Positions 1 through 13,145 of a DNA stretch of 64,000 nucleotides are shown here, piece after piece. The position numbers and the translations under genes are program-made. Numbering within the stretch: position 1 is the first letter of the stretch; the number at the start of each line of letters is the position of its first letter. The notes below the pieces were generated by a model. It made no database searches and was not told the origin of the DNA. It worked only from the letters and a program-made list of their open reading frames with translations. The stretch comes from Terriglobia bacterium (GTDB lineage Bacteria; Acidobacteriota; Terriglobia; Acidiferrales; UBA7541): positions 186,001 to 250,000 of the forward strand of contig JAIQGG010000004.1 of NCBI GenBank assembly GCA_020072785.1. Reading direction: 5' to 3'.

Positions 1-2118
1 GAGATTCCGGCTCGCACCCTCGCGCAACACTATCCCCGGATGGCCCCGGATATCGTCTCCAAAGATCACATTGAAGATGGCAAGCCGGTAGTCCGTGTCT
101 ACGTTCCCAGCGCAGAATCGATGTACAAGTTCCCTCCTCAAAACTGGGCTCTCATCCAGCTCTTTGATGGAAAGCGGTCTTACGAGGAGATCGCTGCAAT
201 TTATTCCCAACAGACGGGAATTTGGTATACCGCCGAAGCAGTCCGGGAATTCTCCGATGAACTTGAGGCCGCAGATTTCTGGTACAAGACGCCGCAGGAA
301 AAAAACATCCTGCTGATGCAGAAGAGCACAGAGGAACGCCGAGAACTTTTGAAATCGAAAAGCAAGTACGGCGATCTGTCGCTTTTCCTCTTTCCGGGAG
401 TCAATCCCGACAAGTTCCTCGACTGGTTGTATAAGTACACCAGTTTCTTCTATACCCCATGGTTCACGCTGGTTACCCTGGCGGCATTTGTCTTCACGGC
501 CGGTATCACCATCACGCACTGGCCGGAGATAGGCCGCGACACTCTGGAGTTCTACAACTTCTCGCATAAGTCGTTGTTGGATGTCGTCCAGTTCTACCTG
601 CTGGCGGTGGTGGTCCTCGGAATACACGAACTCGGGCACGGGCATGCCTGCAAACATTATGGCGGGCGTGTGCCCGCGATGGGATTCGCGCTCATCTATC
701 TGGCGCCTGCATTCTACACGGACACAACCGAGGGTGATGTCAAAGGAAATCGACAACAGCGTTTGGTCATCTCTCTGGCTGGAGTTTGGGCCGAATTGAT
801 GGTCTGCGCCATTGTCACGCCCATCTGGTGGGGCACACCCCCCGATACTCCTGTCCATAACGCCGCGTACATTCTCATGCTGATTACCGGGATTTCCGCT
901 GCTCTGGTGAATTGGAATCCGCTGATCAAGCTCGATGGCTACCACATGCTTTGTGAGACCCTCGGCATCGTGGACTTGAAAGAGGCCTCGACTGCCTATG
1001 TTTCGGGCTGGGTGAAAAATCATATCTGGGGCTTGCCGGTGGAAGTCCCTTACGTTCCCAAGCGGCGGCGGTTCGGATACGCCGTATATGCGCTTCTCTC
1101 TGGCCTCTACAGCTACTTAGTGTTGTACGTGCTTGCACACTTCGTGGGTAACGTCTTTCGCAATTTCAATCCCGAATGGTCCTTTATCCCTGAGTTGGCA
1201 ACAGCGGGCCTGATCTTTCAATCACGGATCCGCCTCTTGGTGAACTTTATGAAATTCGTTTACTTGGACAAGAAAGACAGGGTACTTGGATGGTTCACAC
1301 CCCGGCGCTCCATGGCAATGGCTGCGGGCATTGGAGCGTTGTTGTTGACCCCCTTGCGGCACGATGCCGTCATGGGGCGCTTCATTCTGGAACCATACAA
1401 ACGGGTTACGGTGCGTGCCGAGGTGCCCGGCATTGTAACGGACATTTATGCGGACGAAGGAAAGCCGGTGGAATCAGGGGCGTCTTTGGTGCGCTTGCGT
1501 AATTTGCCTTTGCAATCGAGGCTGGCGCGCAGCGAGTCTGAATACATCGTTACTTCCGGGCGAGCCGTGTCCGCGACTCTGCGCTATGACAACTTCGGGC
1601 CTGTGGTAAAGGAACGAGAAAGGCTGGCCCGACAGACCAGCATGCTTTTCTCCGAGGCCGCCAACCTGGAGCTCAAGAGCCCGATTTCCGGAGTGGTTCT
1701 GACGCCACACGCGACCGATCGCGTAGGAGCCTATGTCACGGAGGGAACGGAGCTTCTCGAGATCGCCGATTTGAACCAACTGCGTGCTCGCATTTATGTT
1801 TCGGAACACGATATGTATAAGCTGCGGGTGGGCTCCCACGCCAGCTTGCAAGTAGAGGGCATTCTCAAGAAATGGGACGCCCACGCGCTGGCTATTTCTG
1901 CCCTGTCTACTGAAATTGACCCAGGACTTGGGGATCAGACCCAGTACAAAGGGCTTCTGTCACCAAACTTCTACCTGGTCGATCTGCTGGTTGCGAACCC
2001 CGAAGGAATCCTCAAACCTGGAATGACCGGAACAGCCCGCGTTTACGCACAACGGCACAGCGTTGCTGGGTTCGCCTGGCAGGAGGTCAGGAATTTCTTT
2101 GGCCGAAAGGTGTGGTGA
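1..2118 (+). CDS. PqqD-M50 peptidase-HlyD fusion protein (5'-partial)
   Basis: A membrane fusion protein that probably binds, cleaves and/or exports a ribosomal peptide. Counting from the ATG at base 40, residues 1-85 look like a PqqD-type peptide-recognition domain. A membrane M50 metallopeptidase follows, with HELGH at 196-200 and a second metal ligand in the NPLIKLDGY segment (D299). After a last TM near 425-440, residues 450-690 form an HlyD-like barrel-sandwich adaptor (VRAEVPGIV, then LKSPISGVVL). The frame is open to base 1, and the residues before M1 (EIPARTLAQHYPRM) fit the start of this family, so the true start probably lies outside the window. It is convergent with the 81-residue peptide gene and ends in a shared terminator. 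An efflux adaptor role unrelated to the peptide is possible. Base composition is less GC-rich than in the genes further right. Confidence 0.85.
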   Translation, partial: EIPARTLAQHYPRMAPDIVSKDHIEDGKPVVRVYVPSAESMYKFPPQNWALIQLFDGKRSYEEIAAIYSQQTGIWYTAEAVREFSDELEAADFWYKTPQEKNILLMQKSTEERRELLKSKSKYGDLSLFLFPGVNPDKFLDWLYKYTSFFYTPWFTLVTLAAFVFTAGITITHWPEIGRDTLEFYNFSHKSLLDVVQFYLLAVVVLGIHELGHGHACKHYGGRVPAMGFALIYLAPAFYTDTTEGDVKGNRQQRLVISLAGVWAELMVCAIVTPIWWGTPPDTPVHNAAYILMLITGISAALVNWNPLIKLDGYHMLCETLGIVDLKEASTAYVSGWVKNHIWGLPVEVPYVPKRRRFGYAVYALLSGLYSYLVLYVLAHFVGNVFRNFNPEWSFIPELATAGLIFQSRIRLLVNFMKFVYLDKKDRVLGWFTPRRSMAMAAGIGALLLTPLRHDAVMGRFILEPYKRVTVRAEVPGIVTDIYADEGKPVESGASLVRLRNLPLQSRLARSESEYIVTSGRAVSATLRYDNFGPVVKERERLARQTSMLFSEAANLELKSPISGVVLTPHATDRVGAYVTEGTELLEIADLNQLRARIYVSEHDMYKLRVGSHASLQVEGILKKWDAHALAISALSTEIDPGLGDQTQYKGLLSPNFYLVDLLVANPEGILKPGMTGTARVYAQRHSVAGFAWQEVRNFFGRKVW

Positions 2119-2182: not shown

Positions 2183-2428
2183 TTAGATCTTGCCGAGCTT
2201 GCCCAACTTGCCGAGCTTGCCCAGTTTGCCCAACTTCCCCAACTTGCCGAGCTTACCCAGTTTGCCGAGCTTGCCCATGTTCGCGGCCCTGCCCAGGTTC
2301 GCGAACTTGCCCAGCTTCACGCCCTGCTCGGATTTTACGTCCGAGGCAGTGACCAGTGGCGCGCTGGCTACGTTGGCCTTCTTGGTCGTCTTCAGAGCGC
2401 TGATCAATGATTTCTTTTGGATTGCCAT
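2183..2428 (-). CDS. 81-aa repeat peptide, candidate RiPP precursor
   Basis: A small basic peptide of 81 residues. Residues 1-38 look like a leader (MAIQKKSLISALKTTKKANV, then SAPLVTASDV). Residues 39-80 are seven hexads of the form (L/M)-G-(K/R)-x-(A/G)-(N/K), and the last five are pure Leu-Gly-Lys/Leu-Gly-Lys, ending in I81. I chose the ATG at 2428 because a GGGAGGA ribosome-binding site lies just upstream; the frame stays open to 2545, but that part overlaps the promoter. No Cys, no double-glycine cleavage site and no signal peptide are seen. Synonymous codons vary across the repeats. It lies between a sigma-54 activator and a PqqD-M50-HlyD fusion, which suggests a substrate of that protein. 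A structural or DNA-binding peptide cannot be excluded. Confidence 0.8.
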   Translation of the reverse strand: MAIQKKSLISALKTTKKANVASAPLVTASDVKSEQGVKLGKFANLGRAANMGKLGKLGKLGKLGKLGKLGKLGKLGKLGKI

Positions 2429-2485
2429 TTTCCTGTCCTCCCTTAATTCCAATCTTGAGTGTGCCCCCGGAACACAGAGAATATA

Positions 2486-2501
2486 AGCAAGAGTAGTACC
2501 A
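2486..2501 (-). promoter_or_regulatory. sigma-54 (-24/-12) promoter of the peptide gene
   Basis: The minus strand reads TGGTACTACTCTTGCT. This matches the TGGCAC-N5-TTGCW consensus with the required 10 nt between GG and GC; the fourth base is T instead of C. The predicted transcription start is near 2475, giving a leader of about 47 nt with a good ribosome-binding site. A sigma-54 activator gene lies directly upstream. Confidence 0.75.
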
Positions 2502-2585: not shown

Positions 2586-2641
2586 TAGTAAAAATTAAAC
2601 TTTTGGTTAAAATTTAACCATTATTGGGTTAAAAATTAATC
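2586..2641. promoter_or_regulatory. palindromic array, candidate activator-binding sites
   Basis: In an AT-rich stretch, GGTTAAAATTTAACC (2605-2619) is a perfect palindrome around one central base. A second copy with 13/15 matches starts 22 bp away at 2627 and overlaps the activator stop codon. A weaker copy (10/15) lies at 2586-2600. The main site is centred about 137 bp upstream of the predicted sigma-54 start, a usual enhancer distance. Binding by the adjacent activator is inferred. Confidence 0.55.
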
Positions 2642-4042
2642 TTTTTCAAGGCATAGCTTGCGACACAAATACTTCATACGCTGCGGATCGAGCCGGAGGA
2701 GCAGAGCGGCGGCTGATTTCTTGCCCCCGGTACGGCGCAGGGCGGCGGTGAGGTAGGCGATCTGGATGCGTTCCATCTCGGAATCGAAATCCACGCCTTT
2801 TTCGGGGATGAGAATGGCCTCCTGGCCGGCAGTGCTGGAAGAGAGCAAGTGCTGGGGCAGGTGCTCGGCGGAAATGACCGCGCCCTGGTTCATCACTACC
2901 AGCCGCTGCACGATGTTTTCAAGCTCGCGCACGTTGCCCGGCCAGGCGTAGTCCTCCAGGATCTCGACGACTTCGGGCTGCAATTGTTTGAGGGGCTTCT
3001 TGTTGGCCGCGCAGTAGACGCGCAGGAAGTGGTCCACGAGGAGGGGTATGTCCCCCGCGCGCTCGCGCAGGGGCGGAATGAAGATGGGCACCACATTGAT
3101 GCGGAAATAGAGGTCTTCGCGGAAGCGGCCCTTGCGCACGCAGTCTTCCAGGTCCTCGTTGGTTGCAGTGATAAGCCGGAAATCGATCTTGCGCGCCGAG
3201 CGTCCGCCGAGGCGCTGCACGGTGTGCTCCTGGAGCACGCGGAGCAGCTTGCTTTGCAGGCTCTGGTTCAGGGTGGTGATCTCGTCCAGGAAAAGCGTCC
3301 CGGTATCGGCCATTTCGATAAGCCCGGGTTTGGCGGCATCGGCTCCGGTGAAGGCGCCCTTCTCATAGCCGAAGAGCTCGGACTCGATGAGGCTCTCGGG
3401 AAGGGCCGAACAGTTCAGGCAGACGTAGGGTTTATTCTGGCGGTTGCCGAACTGCACGATGGCCTGGGCGATGAGCTCCTTGCCGGTTCCGCTTTCTCCG
3501 CGCAGAACGATGCTGGTATTGCTGTCGGCGACGGCCTGAATGGACTGATAGACTTTCTGCATGGCATCGCTGCCGCCGATCATGCCGCAGAATGCGGATT
3601 TGCTCTCCACCTGCTCGAGCATGCGCCGCCCTTCGAGCTCCAGGGCGCGTTTCTCGATAGCACGCACGAGGACAATCTGCAGCTCCTGGAAATTGACCGG
3701 GGAGAGGAAGAACTCGTCGGCGCCGGCCTGGCTGGCTTTTAGCGGTATCGCACGGCTCGTGGAGTGCGTCATGGCCACCAGGACGACATCCTCGCGGATT
3801 TGACGGATCTCTTTGAGAACCTCGATTCCGTCTTCGGCGCTGTTCTCGATGCTGTCCAGGTCCAAAAGGATGGCATGCAGGGGTTCGGTATCCATCAGGG
3901 CCCGGATCTGTTTTTCCGTGCTGGCCAGGACCGTCTGAAAGGCGGGAGCCAGGACGCGGCGCATCTCGAGGAAAGTCGACTCTTCCTCGGTGACAATCGC
4001 GATGGAGTACAGCACCCCGTGGGGATCGTTTTCGGAAAGCAT
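2636..4042 (-). CDS. orphan NtrC-family sigma-54 activator
   Basis: A 468-residue enhancer-binding protein, probably controlling the adjacent peptide gene. Residues 1-130 are a receiver-like domain: D61 could accept phosphate, and the usual acidic pair is E19/E20. The conserved Lys before Pro is replaced by Ser (S114-P115), so phosphorylation control may differ. The AAA+ domain (about 150-390) has GESGTGKE (Walker A), GAFTGA for sigma-54 contact, GTLFLDEI (Walker B) and R-finger motifs (FREDLYFRINV). A Fis-type helix-turn-helix ends the protein. No kinase gene is adjacent, unlike the other three NtrC-type genes in the window. The stop codon lies inside the palindromic array that precedes the peptide gene. 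Confidence 0.93.
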   Translation of the reverse strand: MLSENDPHGVLYSIAIVTEEESTFLEMRRVLAPAFQTVLASTEKQIRALMDTEPLHAILLDLDSIENSAEDGIEVLKEIRQIREDVVLVAMTHSTSRAIPLKASQAGADEFFLSPVNFQELQIVLVRAIEKRALELEGRRMLEQVESKSAFCGMIGGSDAMQKVYQSIQAVADSNTSIVLRGESGTGKELIAQAIVQFGNRQNKPYVCLNCSALPESLIESELFGYEKGAFTGADAAKPGLIEMADTGTLFLDEITTLNQSLQSKLLRVLQEHTVQRLGGRSARKIDFRLITATNEDLEDCVRKGRFREDLYFRINVVPIFIPPLRERAGDIPLLVDHFLRVYCAANKKPLKQLQPEVVEILEDYAWPGNVRELENIVQRLVVMNQGAVISAEHLPQHLLSSSTAGQEAILIPEKGVDFDSEMERIQIAYLTAALRRTGGKKSAAALLLRLDPQRMKYLCRKLCLEKD

Positions 4043-4706: not shown

Positions 4707-5972
4707 ATGAGGTTTACTTTCAGAAGTTATTCAGCGGCATTACTCTTCACCGTGGTTCTGGCCGTCCCGGCGCTGGCGACGGATGGCTATCTTGCCAGCG
4801 GGTATGGCGTGAAGCAGCAGGGGCAGGGGGGCGCCGGGGTGGCCCTGCCGGAAGACAGCCTGGCGGCCGCCACGAATCCGGCCGGCATGGTGTTTGTCGG
4901 GAACCGCTTCGACTTCGGCGTGAGTTTTTTCCGCCCCATTCGCAGCGGCGCGATTTCCGGCAACCAACTGCCGCCCGGCTACCCGAACGTGAATGGCAGC
5001 TACGACGCCAACGGCCGCAAGAACTTCTTCATCCCCGAGCTGGGCTACAACCGCTTGATTCGGCCCCGTATTTCTCTGGGCGTAGCGGTATATGGCAATG
5101 GCGGGATGAATACCGTTTTTCTTGCGCCGATCCCGCTGTTCGGCACCGGCCGAGCCGGCGTGAACCTGGTGCAACTGTTTGTGGCGCCAACCATGGCGGT
5201 CAAAGTGAACAAGCGCAACGCCTTCGGCATTTCCGTGAACCTGGCCTATCAGCGGTTTCAAGCCGAGGGCTTGCAGAACTTCGCTTCTGCGGCCTATTCG
5301 AGCGATCCCGCGAACGTTACCAATCGCGGCTACGATTCTTCGGTGGGCGCGGGAGTGCGCGTGGGCTGGCTGGGCGAGGTCTTTCGGAACGTCACGCTGG
5401 GGGCAACGTTCCAGAGCAAGACGTACATGGGAAAGTTCAACCGCTACCGGGGGCTGTTCGCGGAGCAAGGGGGTTTCGACATTCCCGCGAACTTCGCTGG
5501 CGGCATAGCCGTGAAGGTTCATCCCAGAGTGACCGCGGCTTTCGATGTGGAACGCATTCTGTATGGACAGGTAAAGTCCATCGCCAATTCCGGTGCGAAT
5601 CAGGCGCTGCTGGGTTCGGCGAACGGCCCGGGGTTCGGATGGCATGACATCACGGCGTACAAGGCCGGAGTCAACTACAAGGCCAGCTCCGCTTTGACGT
5701 TGCGCGCAGGCTATAACCACTCCGGTCTCCCGTTCGCCAATACGCAGACATTCTTCAACCTCGTGGCTCCGGGCATCGTGCAGCATCACGCGAGCTTCGG
5801 AGCGACCTGGAAGCTTAGCGGGGGCAAGGAGATCAATTTCGCCTATTTCCATGCCTTCGAAAGAACCCTGAATGGAGTGTCCTCGATTCCGCCCAGCGCG
5901 GGCGGCGGGAATGCCAACCTGCGCATGCATCAAAATTCGGCGGGAATCAGCTTTGGCTGGAGGCGGGAGTAG
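4707..5972 (+). CDS. FadL/OmpP1-family outer-membrane transporter
   Basis: A 421-residue outer-membrane beta-barrel of the long-chain fatty acid/hydrocarbon transporter family. The signal peptide ends near ALA-TDGY, and the mature N terminus has the family's NPAGM motif within an N-terminal hatch (GQGGAGVALPEDSLAAATNPAGM). The barrel ends in an aromatic-rich strand (SFGWRRE). I chose the ATG at 4707 because AAGGAG lies 10 nt upstream and a signal peptide follows directly; a TTG at 4665 opens the frame further. The substrate is not determined. Confidence 0.88.
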   Translation: MRFTFRSYSAALLFTVVLAVPALATDGYLASGYGVKQQGQGGAGVALPEDSLAAATNPAGMVFVGNRFDFGVSFFRPIRSGAISGNQLPPGYPNVNGSYDANGRKNFFIPELGYNRLIRPRISLGVAVYGNGGMNTVFLAPIPLFGTGRAGVNLVQLFVAPTMAVKVNKRNAFGISVNLAYQRFQAEGLQNFASAAYSSDPANVTNRGYDSSVGAGVRVGWLGEVFRNVTLGATFQSKTYMGKFNRYRGLFAEQGGFDIPANFAGGIAVKVHPRVTAAFDVERILYGQVKSIANSGANQALLGSANGPGFGWHDITAYKAGVNYKASSALTLRAGYNHSGLPFANTQTFFNLVAPGIVQHHASFGATWKLSGGKEINFAYFHAFERTLNGVSSIPPSAGGGNANLRMHQNSAGISFGWRRE

Positions 5973-7820: not shown

Positions 7821-10800
7821 GTGACGCGACTAAACGCAAAACTCTTGCTATGTCTGATGGCCTTGCTGCCGCCGATGCGACTCTGCGCGCAGAAGCCCGG
7901 GGGCGCCGCGCAAGGACAGCAGCCCGTGGGGATCGCCGGCGCAGCCGCTGGGACTACCGCGCCGGCGGCAAAGCCCGTGATCCGGCAATTCACGCCGGCG
8001 CAGGGCGCCCAAGGGACAAGCCTCACGCTGACCATCAGCGGGGCCAACTTCACGCCGGGCCTGCAGGTGGCCTTCAACCCCGCGAGCGGAATCACCGTCC
8101 AGGGCACCAGCTTCGTCTCCAGCAACCAGCTTCAGGCACAAATCAGCATCGATCGTTCCGCGCCGCTGGGGCCGCGGCAGTTAAGCATCACAACGATGGC
8201 GACTTTAGCGGCTGCGCTGAGCGTGCCCGCGAGGCAGTCGTTCACGGTCGTGCCAGGTGCAGCACCTGCGCCGAATCAGGACCCCGCGAATGCGCCCCCA
8301 CCGCAGCAGCCCGCGACCGGCGCGCCTCCGGCCACCGATGCGGCCTTGGCGGGAAAGCCTGCGGTCCAGATCCGCGAATTCACGCCGCCGCAGGGCGCCC
8401 AGGGGACAACCTTGACCGTGCAAATCGCCGGGGCCAACTTTGCCAAGGGCATGCAGGTGGCCTTCAATCCCCCGGCTGGAATCAAGGTTCTGAGCACCAA
8501 CGTCGTTTCGAGTTTCCAGCTTCAGGCGCAGATCAGCATTGATCCCGCGGCGCCGCTGGGGCCGCGGAAGCTGGGCATTTCTCTGGCCACGGCGCTGGCG
8601 GGAGGTGTGGGTGTGACGGCGCGGCAACCCTTCACGGTCGTGCCGGGCGCGGGCACGCCACAGGCTGGGGGGCCTCCGGCCGGGCGGGACAAGGGACCGG
8701 GACCGCTTGTCGTGCGGCTGATACCGAACCAGTTGCCCGTGGGGGCCCGCAATGTCACGCTGGTCATCCGCGGCGAGAATTTCGCACCCAACGCCACGGT
8801 GAGCTTCAGTCCGGCGGACGTGCGGGTCACGCCGCCCGTGCTGTTCATCAACAGCTCGGAGCTGCACGTGACCGTCGACGTGTTCTCAACGATCACCGGG
8901 CCTCGCGACGTCATCGTCACCAACGCCAGGGGCGGCAGCGGCACGGGCAGGGACCTGCTCCTGGTCCAGGGACTCGAAGCCGGGCCGGGGCGCGGGTACT
9001 CGGGGGCCAAGATCATCTCCCTGCCGGTTGCCGCGATCTCCTTGAAGCCCCAAGCGAGCATCAAGCTGGCCGGGCCGGTGGATAAGCAGGAGCTGTGGAA
9101 CTTTTACGGGACCCATGCGCGTTACGCGTTCAAATGGAGCGACAGCGCGTCCACGAAGCCGCAGATCTACACCGTATCCATCGGCAAAGATGGCGAAGCC
9201 CCGGTACTGAAGATCCAGGTGGGGGCGCGCGACTTCCTAAGCGATCCCCTGCTGCTCACCCCGGCCCAGGTCTTCAAGCTCAAGCACGGCGAAAGTTATA
9301 CCTGGCAGGTGGACGGATACGACGGCAAGGGCAAATGGATTTCGCGCACCATTCAGCCCTGGCACTTCAAGGCGGATGTCTATTTCACCGACAACCTGAA
9401 CTGCGAGCCCTCCAGCTGCGACGAAGCCACGATCGTGCCGGAGCCGGATTACACGGGCACGGACAAGAACACCGCAACGCTGCTGGCCAACCGGGCGATC
9501 AAGTTCACCGTGACCTACGGGCAGAAGCTGAAAGATGCGATGAAATCCGCGCAGGGCGATGCGCTGCCCGGCGAGGAACAGCGCGGCGGCGGGATGAGCC
9601 CGGGGAGCGTCACGCAAGCGACATCCATCCAGGCGCCGGTGGCCGACAGTCTGGTCCAGCATTCGGTGAATTACCTCGGACAAAGCGTGATTGCGCTGGG
9701 CGTGCAGATTCGCGATCCCTTCGGGCAGCGGCAAGAAAACGAATTCTGCATGCATTGGACGTCGGTGGACTGGGGCGACGGCACTCCTCCGGAGATGATG
9801 GACATGTGCCATGGCTGGGCTTGGCCGAGCGATCAGGTCCTGTACAAGGACCACCAGTTTCCGAGCGTGGGCACCTTCACGGTGAAGGTCTATACGGAAG
9901 GCGGCGGCTTTTACCACCTGATGGCCTGCATCAAGGTGGATATCCAGCCGCCGCCGTGTCATGTGACCGACCCCATTACCCTGGCGAAGAAGGATCCCTT
10001 CAAGCTGACCGGCTATCAGGGCACTGCGGACGCGCAGCCCACCGTGAGCACCTATTGGAAGACGACGCCGCGGCCGGTCGCGCAGATCGGCTACACCGGC
10101 GGAAAGGGCTCGGTGGGGATCGAGTGGTCTGTGGACGGCAGCCTGATCGAAACGCAAACCGTGGACCTGGCGGGCTGCGAAGGGATGAAGGCCATCACGC
10201 TGGACCGCGACCTGCCGCACAAGAGCACCGACCTGCCGCCGGCGGGCAAGGGCCTGCACACGGTCAGCGCGCGCGTTGTGAGCGTCGCGGGCAGCGCCGC
10301 GCCGAAAGAGGACGTAGCCCAGAGCATCAACGCCATCTCCAAGATGCAGTTGCTGGGCGGGCTCGGCGGAGGAAATCCCCCGCCGGCGCAGCAGCCGCTC
10401 TCCAAGTTCCTGGTGGCCACCAGCTTCCTGCAGTTGATGGCCCCGGCGGAGATCAGCCCGGTGGACAGCCCGGTCAATCTGAAATACAACGTGGACGATG
10501 CGCCCCCGCCGCCGGATATGCCCGTGGAGATCGACATCGCCACGGCCAAATCCGGCAAGTTCGTGATCGTGGATCTCTCCAAGAGCACCAAGATCACCGC
10601 CGGGAAGGTGAGCGGCGGCGGGGTCATCCAGTTGCCGGTGACCGACGCGATCGTCAACGTGGCCACCACCTTCAGCGATCTCACCGTCAGCTACGACCCC
10701 TCCACGCACATCGCCACGGTGACCGGCGGAGCGATCGACACGCCCCTGTCCAACACCTTTTTCAACGTCGGCAACTTCCAGGGCGAACTGGACAAACTGA

Positions 10801-13145
10801 AAATCGACATGACCGCGGCCACGGTCAGCGGCAAGGTGACCCTGCCCGCGGCGACCGGGCTGACCGTAGGGGGAAGCACGACCTCCATCCCCTTCAGCGA
10901 TGCGGAATTTTTCCTGGAGTGGACGGGCGACAGTCCTACGTTCGGCCACTTCTACAAAGAGGGGATCACGCTGCCCGATTCCAATATCTTCAGCACCGGC
11001 TTCCGGCTGCTCAGTCCGGCTGTGACCGTGGATTTTTCGAAGCTGAAGGGCAGCGGCGTGGGCACGGAATGCGGCGGCAGCGTGGCCAGCGCCAGCTCGT
11101 TCCTGGGCGTGGTGCTGGGCAAGGGCACAAAGATCGCGCCTCCCTCGTCGATCTTCGGCGACGCCCTGGCCAACAGCTATTCGATCCCGCTGGACGACAC
11201 GGCGGTCATCTCCTCCGGCTTCTCCCGGCAGTTGAAGAATATCCCGATCAATCAGAGCGCCTCGCTGTTCAGCTTCACGGCTTCGCTCGATACCGGCGAG
11301 CTAGACTGGTGCGGCAGTTCCTTCGCCTTCACCGTGAACAGCACGCTGAAGAACCTGCCGCTGTTCTCGAACAACCTGTCCGTGAAGGCCACCATCACCC
11401 AGGATGGAGGGTTGACGGCATCCAGCAGCGGCGGCACGGTGGGACCGGTCAGCATCGGGCCGCTGACGCTCACCGGGAAAAATTTTGGCTTCGAATTTAC
11501 CGGCGGGCAGGGCGTACGCGTGAAGCTGGACCTGGACGCCAAGGTGGATCTGCCGTCCACCAATCTCGGCAACCTGCCCTTTCAGGACGTGCGCATCGGG
11601 CCCCACGGAGAGTTCTCCATTGGTTCCGGAAGCGTCGAGGGATGGAAGTCGCTGGGTTCCTCGGCCAGCGCCGAGTTTTACGGCTTCGGCTTGTCCCTGA
11701 GCGAACTGGGCGCGGGCGTGGAAGCCAAGGGCGGATCAAAATTCCGGGCCTTCCTGGGAGTGAGCGGAGCGCTGACCCTGACCGACATCATCCCCATTCA
11801 TGGCAAAGCCTCCGCGGACCGTATCCGCTTCTACATGGCGGAAAACAACGGCGTGTTCTCCTTCGATGGCGTGCAGGTGGACAAGATCGCCGTCGATTTC
11901 ACCTACGCCGACCTCGGCTTCAAGGGCAGCATCGGATGGAAAGGGAATCCGCTCTCCGCGGAGCTGATGCCCGGGCCGTTGGATGGACCAGGAAGCGGGC
12001 CGGTCCTGGCGGGGTGGAGAAGCGCCGGGGGTTTCGAGGATCCGGACAGTGGCGATCCACTGTGGGCCAGCCTGAATCCCGCGCCGGGCGCGCTGCCGTC
12101 ACCCATGGTTCCGCCCATGGACGACAAGTCGAGCCGCTTCTTCGGGGAGCTCGGTGTCAGCCTGATGGATCTCGGCGATTTGAACGCCGGCTTCCTGGTG
12201 GGCAACTCTTCCGGGAGCACTTTCTTCCTGGCGCGGCTGACCGCGGATCTTCCTTCGCCCGGAATCATGCTGGGCTCGACACCGCTCTCTCTGCAGTCCA
12301 TCGCCGGCGGCATCGGGTATCACGTGGCCTGGGGCAAGCTGGGTTCGACCGTCAGCTTTTCGAATCCCTGCGACGCCACGAACGTCAACGACTTCGACGC
12401 TCCGCTGGAAAGCGTGGCCTACGACAGCGGGCGCTCCTTTACCTTGAAAGCCGGCGTGGGCATCGGCACGGCGACGGATGACGGCGATCTGCTCTATATG
12501 CGCGGCGTGTTCTCGCTGGACCTGCCCGGCCCCAACGTGGGCGTGGACATCGGCGCCTGGTTGCTGGGTGCGGACCGCGGCGGCAATCCGGAGGCCTGCG
12601 GGCACGTAGGCTATTACAACGAGACGTTCACCGCGTCGGTGGGCGTGGACCTCAAATTCAAGGACCTGGTCGAGGTCAGCGGCGCCGCCGAGCTGCAGTT
12701 CGGCAAGCTGGGCTACCACATCTATGTCGGGACGCAGCAGAACCCGGTGCAGGCGAAGTTCGTGGGTGTGGGCGGCGCGTCCGGTTTCCTGGATGTAGAC
12801 AGCAGCGGGATCAAGGCCGGCGGCGGCGTCCATGTAATGGTCGGCAAGCAGAAGAGCGGCGGCTGCTGGGACGTTTACGGCTACGCCGGGTCCACTGTCA
12901 CCTGCGGCATGGGAATCTATCTGAACCCGCCGAGCATTGACGCCTCTTATTCCTTCTCCGTGAGCGGAGGCATGGGGATCACCATTTTCTGTGTGGACAT
13001 CGGCGTAGATGCCACGGGAACGCTGACGATTTCCGGAAAGCTGCCGCCGCCGCAGATCTGCGGCAACCTGAGCCTGAGCGGCGAAGTCTGCTTCGTCTTT
13101 TGCAAGAGTGCCAGCGTGGATTTGAGCGTGTGCTTCCCGCCATGA
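7821..13145 (+). CDS. giant secreted IPT/TIG-domain protein
   Basis: A 1774-residue secreted or surface protein of unknown function. A GTG start is followed by a signal peptide (about 1-23). Three IPT/TIG immunoglobulin-like modules lie at about 52-143, 182-275 and 296-380, each with GANF or GENF and VTLxI patterns. A PKD-like segment (WGDGTPP, then VGTFTVKVY) is near 645-700. The rest is long, Gly/Ser/Asp-rich beta-repeat sequence with no enzyme motif. The C-terminal 100 residues are rich in Cys, which suggests disulfides. The FN3 gene begins 17 nt after the stop, so the two are probably co-transcribed and may form one surface structure. Adhesion or substrate binding is a guess from the architecture. 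Confidence 0.85.
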   Translation: MTRLNAKLLLCLMALLPPMRLCAQKPGGAAQGQQPVGIAGAAAGTTAPAAKPVIRQFTPAQGAQGTSLTLTISGANFTPGLQVAFNPASGITVQGTSFVSSNQLQAQISIDRSAPLGPRQLSITTMATLAAALSVPARQSFTVVPGAAPAPNQDPANAPPPQQPATGAPPATDAALAGKPAVQIREFTPPQGAQGTTLTVQIAGANFAKGMQVAFNPPAGIKVLSTNVVSSFQLQAQISIDPAAPLGPRKLGISLATALAGGVGVTARQPFTVVPGAGTPQAGGPPAGRDKGPGPLVVRLIPNQLPVGARNVTLVIRGENFAPNATVSFSPADVRVTPPVLFINSSELHVTVDVFSTITGPRDVIVTNARGGSGTGRDLLLVQGLEAGPGRGYSGAKIISLPVAAISLKPQASIKLAGPVDKQELWNFYGTHARYAFKWSDSASTKPQIYTVSIGKDGEAPVLKIQVGARDFLSDPLLLTPAQVFKLKHGESYTWQVDGYDGKGKWISRTIQPWHFKADVYFTDNLNCEPSSCDEATIVPEPDYTGTDKNTATLLANRAIKFTVTYGQKLKDAMKSAQGDALPGEEQRGGGMSPGSVTQATSIQAPVADSLVQHSVNYLGQSVIALGVQIRDPFGQRQENEFCMHWTSVDWGDGTPPEMMDMCHGWAWPSDQVLYKDHQFPSVGTFTVKVYTEGGGFYHLMACIKVDIQPPPCHVTDPITLAKKDPFKLTGYQGTADAQPTVSTYWKTTPRPVAQIGYTGGKGSVGIEWSVDGSLIETQTVDLAGCEGMKAITLDRDLPHKSTDLPPAGKGLHTVSARVVSVAGSAAPKEDVAQSINAISKMQLLGGLGGGNPPPAQQPLSKFLVATSFLQLMAPAEISPVDSPVNLKYNVDDAPPPPDMPVEIDIATAKSGKFVIVDLSKSTKITAGKVSGGGVIQLPVTDAIVNVATTFSDLTVSYDPSTHIATVTGGAIDTPLSNTFFNVGNFQGELDKLKIDMTAATVSGKVTLPAATGLTVGGSTTSIPFSDAEFFLEWTGDSPTFGHFYKEGITLPDSNIFSTGFRLLSPAVTVDFSKLKGSGVGTECGGSVASASSFLGVVLGKGTKIAPPSSIFGDALANSYSIPLDDTAVISSGFSRQLKNIPINQSASLFSFTASLDTGELDWCGSSFAFTVNSTLKNLPLFSNNLSVKATITQDGGLTASSSGGTVGPVSIGPLTLTGKNFGFEFTGGQGVRVKLDLDAKVDLPSTNLGNLPFQDVRIGPHGEFSIGSGSVEGWKSLGSSASAEFYGFGLSLSELGAGVEAKGGSKFRAFLGVSGALTLTDIIPIHGKASADRIRFYMAENNGVFSFDGVQVDKIAVDFTYADLGFKGSIGWKGNPLSAELMPGPLDGPGSGPVLAGWRSAGGFEDPDSGDPLWASLNPAPGALPSPMVPPMDDKSSRFFGELGVSLMDLGDLNAGFLVGNSSGSTFFLARLTADLPSPGIMLGSTPLSLQSIAGGIGYHVAWGKLGSTVSFSNPCDATNVNDFDAPLESVAYDSGRSFTLKAGVGIGTATDDGDLLYMRGVFSLDLPGPNVGVDIGAWLLGADRGGNPEACGHVGYYNETFTASVGVDLKFKDLVEVSGAAELQFGKLGYHIYVGTQQNPVQAKFVGVGGASGFLDVDSSGIKAGGGVHVMVGKQKSGGCWDVYGYAGSTVTCGMGIYLNPPSIDASYSFSVSGGMGITIFCVDIGVDATGTLTISGKLPPPQICGNLSLSGEVCFVFCKSASVDLSVCFPP

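Follow-up and report, generated by a model that had tools for sequence, protein, structure and literature searches.

The locus studied here raises the question of what kind of product is made by a small gene that ends in a tandem repeat, and what its neighbourhood can tell us about the fate of that product. The gene (81 amino acids) occupies positions 2183-2428 on the minus strand of the window, by which we mean the whole stretch of 64,000 nucleotides analysed, from a Terriglobia bacterium; its ATG is at 2428 and its stop codon at 2183-2185, and homologues keep both the start and the leader. The product, MAIQKKSLISALKTTKKANVASAPLVTASDVKSEQGVKLGKFANLGRAANMGKLGK(LGKLGK)4I, can be divided into a leader of residues 1-38 (2315-2428, minus strand), with a block that is conserved in alignments (M.[IV][QE]KKSLIS.LKT.KKA), and a variable repeat core of residues 39-81 (2186-2314, minus strand), where Tandem Repeats Finder reaches a score of 148, more than for any other repeat in the window. 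The original prediction described residues 39-80 as seven consecutive hexads ending in I81, and reading the minus strand from 2314 to 2186, where the stop codon follows, confirmed this series (LGKFAN, LGRAAN, MGKLGK, four times LGKLGK, then I). The hexad pattern itself held only in part: the residues are as listed, but the last 30 form a 3-residue repeat, the 6-residue character is limited to the first two hexads, and the array is mostly (LGK)10. The gene is clearly real: it has a Shine-Dalgarno sequence (GGGAGG, 2437-2442, minus strand), a predicted sigma54 promoter, an enhancer palindrome and a bidirectional intrinsic terminator (2130-2155, an 11-pair stem with a T run on both strands) common to it and the convergent M50-HlyD gene, and its leader is conserved in many species.

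Codons do vary among the repeats, as had been reported (Leu as CTC, CTG or TTG, Gly as GGC, GGT or GGG, Lys as AAG or AAA). M51 is the sole amino-acid change among the ten triplets that make up residues 51-80, and pairwise comparison of the triplets gives 59 synonymous and 9 nonsynonymous codon differences; counted between units, the array has 11 synonymous versus 7 nonsynonymous differences. When synonymous codons were shuffled within the array, the codon identity of neighbouring triplets was 9 observed versus 11.8 expected, and since it does not exceed the shuffle, the array is without sign of recent slippage. The shuffle therefore bears out the claim that the protein pattern has been kept and not freshly copied, and it rules out recent slippage as the sole origin of this array. 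Tandem Repeats Finder reports a somewhat higher identity at 36 nucleotides, and the enrichment at a lag of 36 is not significant (P 0.18).

The arrays of homologues behave in a similar manner. Raw counts of differences between units are about 47 synonymous versus 7 nonsynonymous for the KAPAKLAA array, 18 versus 1 for QSRV and 20.5 versus 4.5 for NSSLKGLK. The pN/pS ratio between units lies between 0.02 and 0.57 in all 14 arrays with a lag identity of at least 0.5, values that are biased low because array positions were picked by amino-acid identity, so that the independent codon shuffle carries more weight. By that shuffle, applied to 17 arrays, between-unit codons differ as much as random synonyms in 11, and a signature of recent duplication is present in five (L047, L079, L116, L118 and L122); in the APNKL array (L123) there is an alternation with a period of two units. 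In most arrays the units are thus alike as protein and unlike as DNA, which argues that selection, and not recent slippage, keeps the likeness. We infer that a unit, once newly arisen, is spread by duplication and then held by selection at the protein level while its DNA drifts. Selection against repeated DNA may also be involved.

A search of 60 relatives showed that homologues from the same genus align mainly over the N-terminus: the leader block is constant and the cores after it are unrelated. Residues K5, K6, S7, L8, K16 and K17 are invariant in 11 sequences, and the leader is Lys-rich, without a Sec-type hydrophobic stretch. Cores within the genus consist of NSSLKGLK (G001), MHK (G019), KMTKRS (G020) or ATLK (G025) repeats, and the closest homologue found (G021) has no repeat at all, next to an M50 neighbour that is 78% identical. 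In one genome (G003) three paralogues with differing cores lie in tandem (L022, 12877-14081), every one served by a sigma54 promoter and a palindrome of its own, and multiple paralogues with different cores are also found within G096 and within G070. A profile of the leader matched 21 of 399 genomes of the class, including another family (f11) in which the genomes carrying a leader-type peptide are near-complete; the genomes compared are draft assemblies, and the named carriers are acidobacterial metagenome assemblies, among them palsa_91 and a Candidatus Acidoferrales bin from the same genus, and a Candidatus Sulfotelmatobacter. These 21 genomes add cores made of LSKQAHLSKQIS, AESKL, NSPLS (about 12 copies), APNKL (about 20), QSRV (seven), GHSPKVV, APKV, KAPAKLAA, GLKGGA, LQGGGG and the acidic MAADAGS, and SRGASRAA is another unit among the homologues. 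The repeat unit differs in nearly every lineage or genus, with periods of 3, 4, 5, 6, 7, 8 and 12 residues. In the 26 peptides Cys and Trp are absent and Tyr almost so. No curated precursor model matching the peptide was found, and weak whole-protein matches in four genomes (G047, G058, G031 and G028) were left out as probably due to low complexity, several of them containing stops.

In relatives farther off within the phylum, the matching position holds peptides with other leaders (of KSVTIKLTExQRxQI or KKLxxxK[PT]L type), often followed by repeats too (LQRAS, LQRTA, RKAPLSVDAEAS or ALASKS). Seven loci from other genera of the same family (L083, L084, L089, L090, L091, L094 and L095) carry there one to four short Lys-rich peptides that share the KKLxxxK[PT]L motif and seem to represent a second leader type; most of them come with sigma54 elements. 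In four loci from distant acidobacterial families (L093, L160, L164 and L165) a third type, xKSVTIKLTExQRxQIKxATG, precedes repeats of 12 (RKAPLSVDAEAS) or 6 (ALASKS) residues.

Beyond the repeat on which the original prediction had concentrated, what is conserved is the leader, the dedicated sigma54 circuit and a neighbouring gene for an RRE-M50-HlyD fusion protein. Concerning the circuit, the predicted -24/-12 promoter TGGTACTACTCTTGCT (2486-2501, minus strand) has a counterpart in all 23 homologues: a sigma54 element lies 59-89 bases upstream of the start in 23 of 23 leader-type genes when a relaxed pattern is used (1.3 in shuffles), and the stricter TGG[CT]AN6NTGCW precedes 18 of the 23 (0.02 in shuffles). 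Lys-rich paralogues of other genera also carry sigma54 elements. Upstream of the sigma54 element, the palindrome GGTTAANNNTTAACC occurs with at most two mismatches in 21 of the 23 (0.17 expected), often doubled at a spacing of 22 bp, with pairs also in L020, L024, L120 and L121. In the window, the enhancer palindrome GGTTAAAATTTAACC (2605-2619), the predicted site of the adjacent activator, is followed 22 bp away by a second copy on the minus strand, GATTAATTTTTAACC (2627-2641), which has one mismatch and overlaps the end of the regulator gene. The latter (2636-4042, minus strand) encodes an NtrC-type sigma54 activator of 468 amino acids, with a response-regulator-like domain, an AAA+ domain with GAFTGA and a Fis-type HTH, and its orthologues adjoin the peptide gene in relatives. 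The features of sigma54-dependent control, that is, a -24/-12 promoter, an upstream enhancer and a GAFTGA activator, are all found by prediction.

We also counted exact occurrences of GGTTAAWWWTTAACC in whole genomes. There is one in this 3.73-Mb genome, located at the peptide gene; G146 and G177 have a single occurrence apiece, and in G003 each of the three peptide paralogues has one. Away from peptide genes, none was found in these four genomes. Because the sequence is confined to peptide genes, the adjacent activator appears to serve the peptide gene alone, and activator, sigma54 promoter and palindromic enhancer appear from their sequences to form a circuit dedicated to it. In PADLOC the regulator matches RtcR-type models, presumably through its AAA+ domain alone; the peptide and HlyD genes had no defence match, and identity as a defence system was rejected.

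The neighbouring gene (1-2118, plus strand) starts 36 bases before the window (G000:C4:185965) and encodes a protein of 717 amino acids that joins an RRE (PqqD)-like domain, an M50 site-2 protease and an HlyD domain. For the N-terminal domain (residues 31-102) the predicted topology is beta-beta-beta-alpha-alpha-alpha; a profile of it searched against the PDB has PqqD 5sxy as its best match (E 0.0046), with two further PqqD chains (5vrd and 3g2b) and, from a lasso system, the RRE TbiB1 (5v1u) also in the top five. Pfam PqqD matches 6 of 16 members of the fusion family; the protein of this genome, taken alone, is not matched. This similarity to leader-recognition domains is weak but consistent across topology, Pfam and the PDB profile. 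In the protease part, all 16 members keep HExxH (H221, E222 and H225) and NPLxKxDG without change, with zinc ligands intact, and Pfam Peptidase_M50 (PF02163) gives 30 bits against a cut-off of 27.2; by these HExxH and NPxxxxDG motifs and the Pfam score the fusion can be classed as an M50 site-2 protease. The C-terminal part of the predicted structure has a MacA/MexA adaptor fold (Z 17.6, rmsd 2.4 over 220 residues); all structure-search matches of the fusion came from the HlyD domain and speak for that part alone.

The operon of the M50-HlyD gene contains two more HlyD-type adaptors, one a lipoprotein and one with three GAF domains. The same architecture recurs in about 37 loci as a conserved acidobacterial locus, in the order STAS, GAF3-HlyD, lipoprotein-HlyD and RRE(PqqD)-M50-HlyD, with one or more peptide genes and the NtrC-type activator convergent to it. 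Within the genus the peptide is present in 7 of the 8 genomes that have an orthologous M50-HlyD gene, the contig of the eighth ending 141 bp past the M50 gene, and in none of the 28 others (hypergeometric, about 1e-6). When 343 ORFs of 27 loci were clustered, wide sharing was limited to the HlyD/M50/GAF-HlyD group, STAS and the regulator; no radical SAM enzyme, YcaO, methyltransferase or ABC transporter is conserved within these loci.

Since what looks like a dedicated genetic switch adjoins a predicted membrane protease-exporter, the gene probably encodes a secreted peptide, of an apparently undescribed kind; no description of the locus was found in the openly accessible literature. From the leader, the variable cores, the locus with its domain content and the predicted regulatory elements, all read from sequence, we infer how the leader may be bound and cleaved, how the core may be exported and what its biological role could be. 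We think it reasonably likely that the repeat forms the C-terminal core in the precursor of a secreted peptide, guided by its leader and released by the RRE-M50-HlyD fusion. The RRE-like domain would bind the leader, the M50 domain would cut it from the core at the membrane, and the core would leave through a conduit of HlyD-type proteins as an unmodified repetitive peptide, kept by purifying selection within a lineage and quickly turned over between lineages. Such a core would most likely have an extracellular role, in antagonism or in kin-type communication, a guess suggested by the rapid turnover of the repeats. Several observations count against this mechanism: no cleavage motif is evident at the border between leader and core, the absence of an ABC or other energised pump conserved in the locus leaves the driving force for export unexplained, the peptide gene is transcribed apart from the M50 operon and convergent with it, and the RRE similarity is weak at the sequence level, as its E value indicates. 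Release of single units from a multicore precursor is not supported, because the units have no common residue or cleavage motif across lineages.

The same neighbourhood can also be read as a module of regulated proteolysis, in which the peptide stays inside the envelope and serves the M50-HlyD protein and the GAF/STAS proteins as substrate or modulator, for instance by gating or gauging an efflux conduit. M50 proteases often act in signalling, the GAF domains and the STAS gene suggest sensing, and an activator with apparently a single target would suit such a role. A substrate, however, should keep its interaction surface, and here the leader alone is conserved while the core is rewritten; moreover, paralogues with differing cores within one genome (G003, G096 and G070) resemble sets of exported peptides, and we consider the signalling role rather unlikely. 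It is still less probable that the product is a cytoplasmic polycation, a small basic protein that binds a polyanion such as DNA or RNA, its M50 neighbour being unrelated. The core studied here is indeed net cationic (+12 over residues 23-81), as are 25 of the 26 cores, and Lys-rich paralogues occur in related genera, so the original reading of a cationic peptide stands for this sequence; yet charge is not a defining constraint: with a net -19 the MAADAGS core is strongly acidic, and neither NSPLS nor LQGGGG units are charged. This reading would also leave unexplained why the peptide gene so strictly accompanies the RRE-M50-HlyD gene, both in occurrence and in gene order.

Two further alternatives concern the tail alone. 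That it is a neutral low-complexity spacer left by replication slippage, behind a leader that is the only functional part, would agree with the free variation of unit sequence and number between lineages and with the recent-duplication signatures of the five arrays named above, but most arrays combine randomised synonymous codons with identical amino acids, which a neutral spacer would not keep, and this explanation seems improbable to us. The hexapeptide solenoid originally suggested did not survive the comparison with homologues, which lack the hexad register (no repeat in G021, unrelated units of 3-12 residues in the others), nor the structure prediction, since a single-sequence AlphaFold2 model of the peptide is helical and shows no solenoid. 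Glycine at every third residue does produce weak matches to collagen models, and some homologues weakly match pentapeptide-repeat models; the collagen match (18.1 bits, cut-off 27.2) is due solely to this spacing, the array contains no Pro, and a collagen-like protein was rejected. With periods from 3 to 12 that cannot share one fold, any structural solenoid or collagen-like domain is very unlikely. Pentapeptide-repeat proteins do find a likeness in the homologous cores AESKL, LQRAS and LQRTA, which match their models weakly, whereas most members, including the peptide studied, have other periods.

The secreted-precursor reading can be compared with known systems. Daptide leaders are taken off by a fusion of an RRE and a site-2 protease (PMC10036551). 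As in daptides (MpaP; NF041824), an N-terminal RRE-like domain is fused here to an intramembrane M50 protease, and the neighbouring short peptides have a conserved leader and a variable C-terminus. The daptide intramembrane metalloprotease is the nearest curated family of the fusion, and NF041824 aligns over residues 12-363 of the window-truncated protein, but with 139 bits the daptide_HExxH cut-off of 300 is not reached. In addition, the fusion has an extra HlyD domain, the peptide core consists of tandem repeats with no C-terminal Thr, and the oxidative decarboxylase, aminotransferase, methyltransferase and ABC transporter of daptides are not conserved in the locus. EpeP, another M50 protease, is thought to cleave and export EpeX (PMC10885120). 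Like the epipeptides (YydF/EpeX, with EpeP/YydH/LiaK), our locus has an M50 protease with a small peptide, but the LiaK/YydH model gives 38.2 bits, far under its cut-off of 225, no radical SAM epimerase is conserved in the locus, and the adaptors are of the Gram-negative HlyD type, with sigma54 control. By analogy, a maturation similar to those of daptides and epipeptides would be the best explanation of the locus.

The conserved leader followed by a hypervariable C-terminal core is also a trait of RiPP precursors, as is a leader-recognition domain in the locus, such as the RRE/PqqD-like one found here. Across the 343 ORFs of the 27 loci, however, no RiPP modification enzyme is conserved, although one may be encoded elsewhere in the genome, and since an ABC pump is not conserved either, the peptide was not filed as a RiPP. 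Secreted repeat peptides whose units differ between species are also known from fungal KEX2-processed repeat proteins and from multicore peptide precursors; the peptides described here differ in being bacterial, and their units are not separated by a shared cleavage motif.

Acidobacteria rank with the most common bacteria in soil; to our knowledge few of their secreted peptides have been described. The locus joins a conserved leader, endlessly varied repeat cores, an unusual protease-adaptor fusion and what appears to be a single-target switch, and it poses an evolutionary puzzle: the repeats are identical at the protein level and scrambled at the DNA level, and they are replaced from one relative to the next. 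If the mechanism proposed is true, peptides would have an export route that lacks an obvious pump, and the locus would supply peptides specific to their species. The mechanism should be testable, since near-complete genomes of related genera carry the locus. A broader and much more tentative extension, which we regard as doubtful, is that this is a phylum-wide acidobacterial secretion system with neither an ATP-powered pump nor modification enzymes, in which the RRE-site-2-protease-HlyD fusion and its two adaptors might release repeats that protein-level selection holds identical within each lineage and that are replaced wholesale from lineage to lineage, under single-target sigma54 control, as a polymorphic peptide identity.

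Two other genes of the window can be mentioned. At 4707-5969 lies a gene for an outer-membrane protein with a weak match to PorV family models; a likely tRNA gene separates it from the locus, and it was not seen conserved alongside in the relatives examined. At 7821-13145 a very large ORF of 1774 amino acids is found, in which similar segments repeat near the start.
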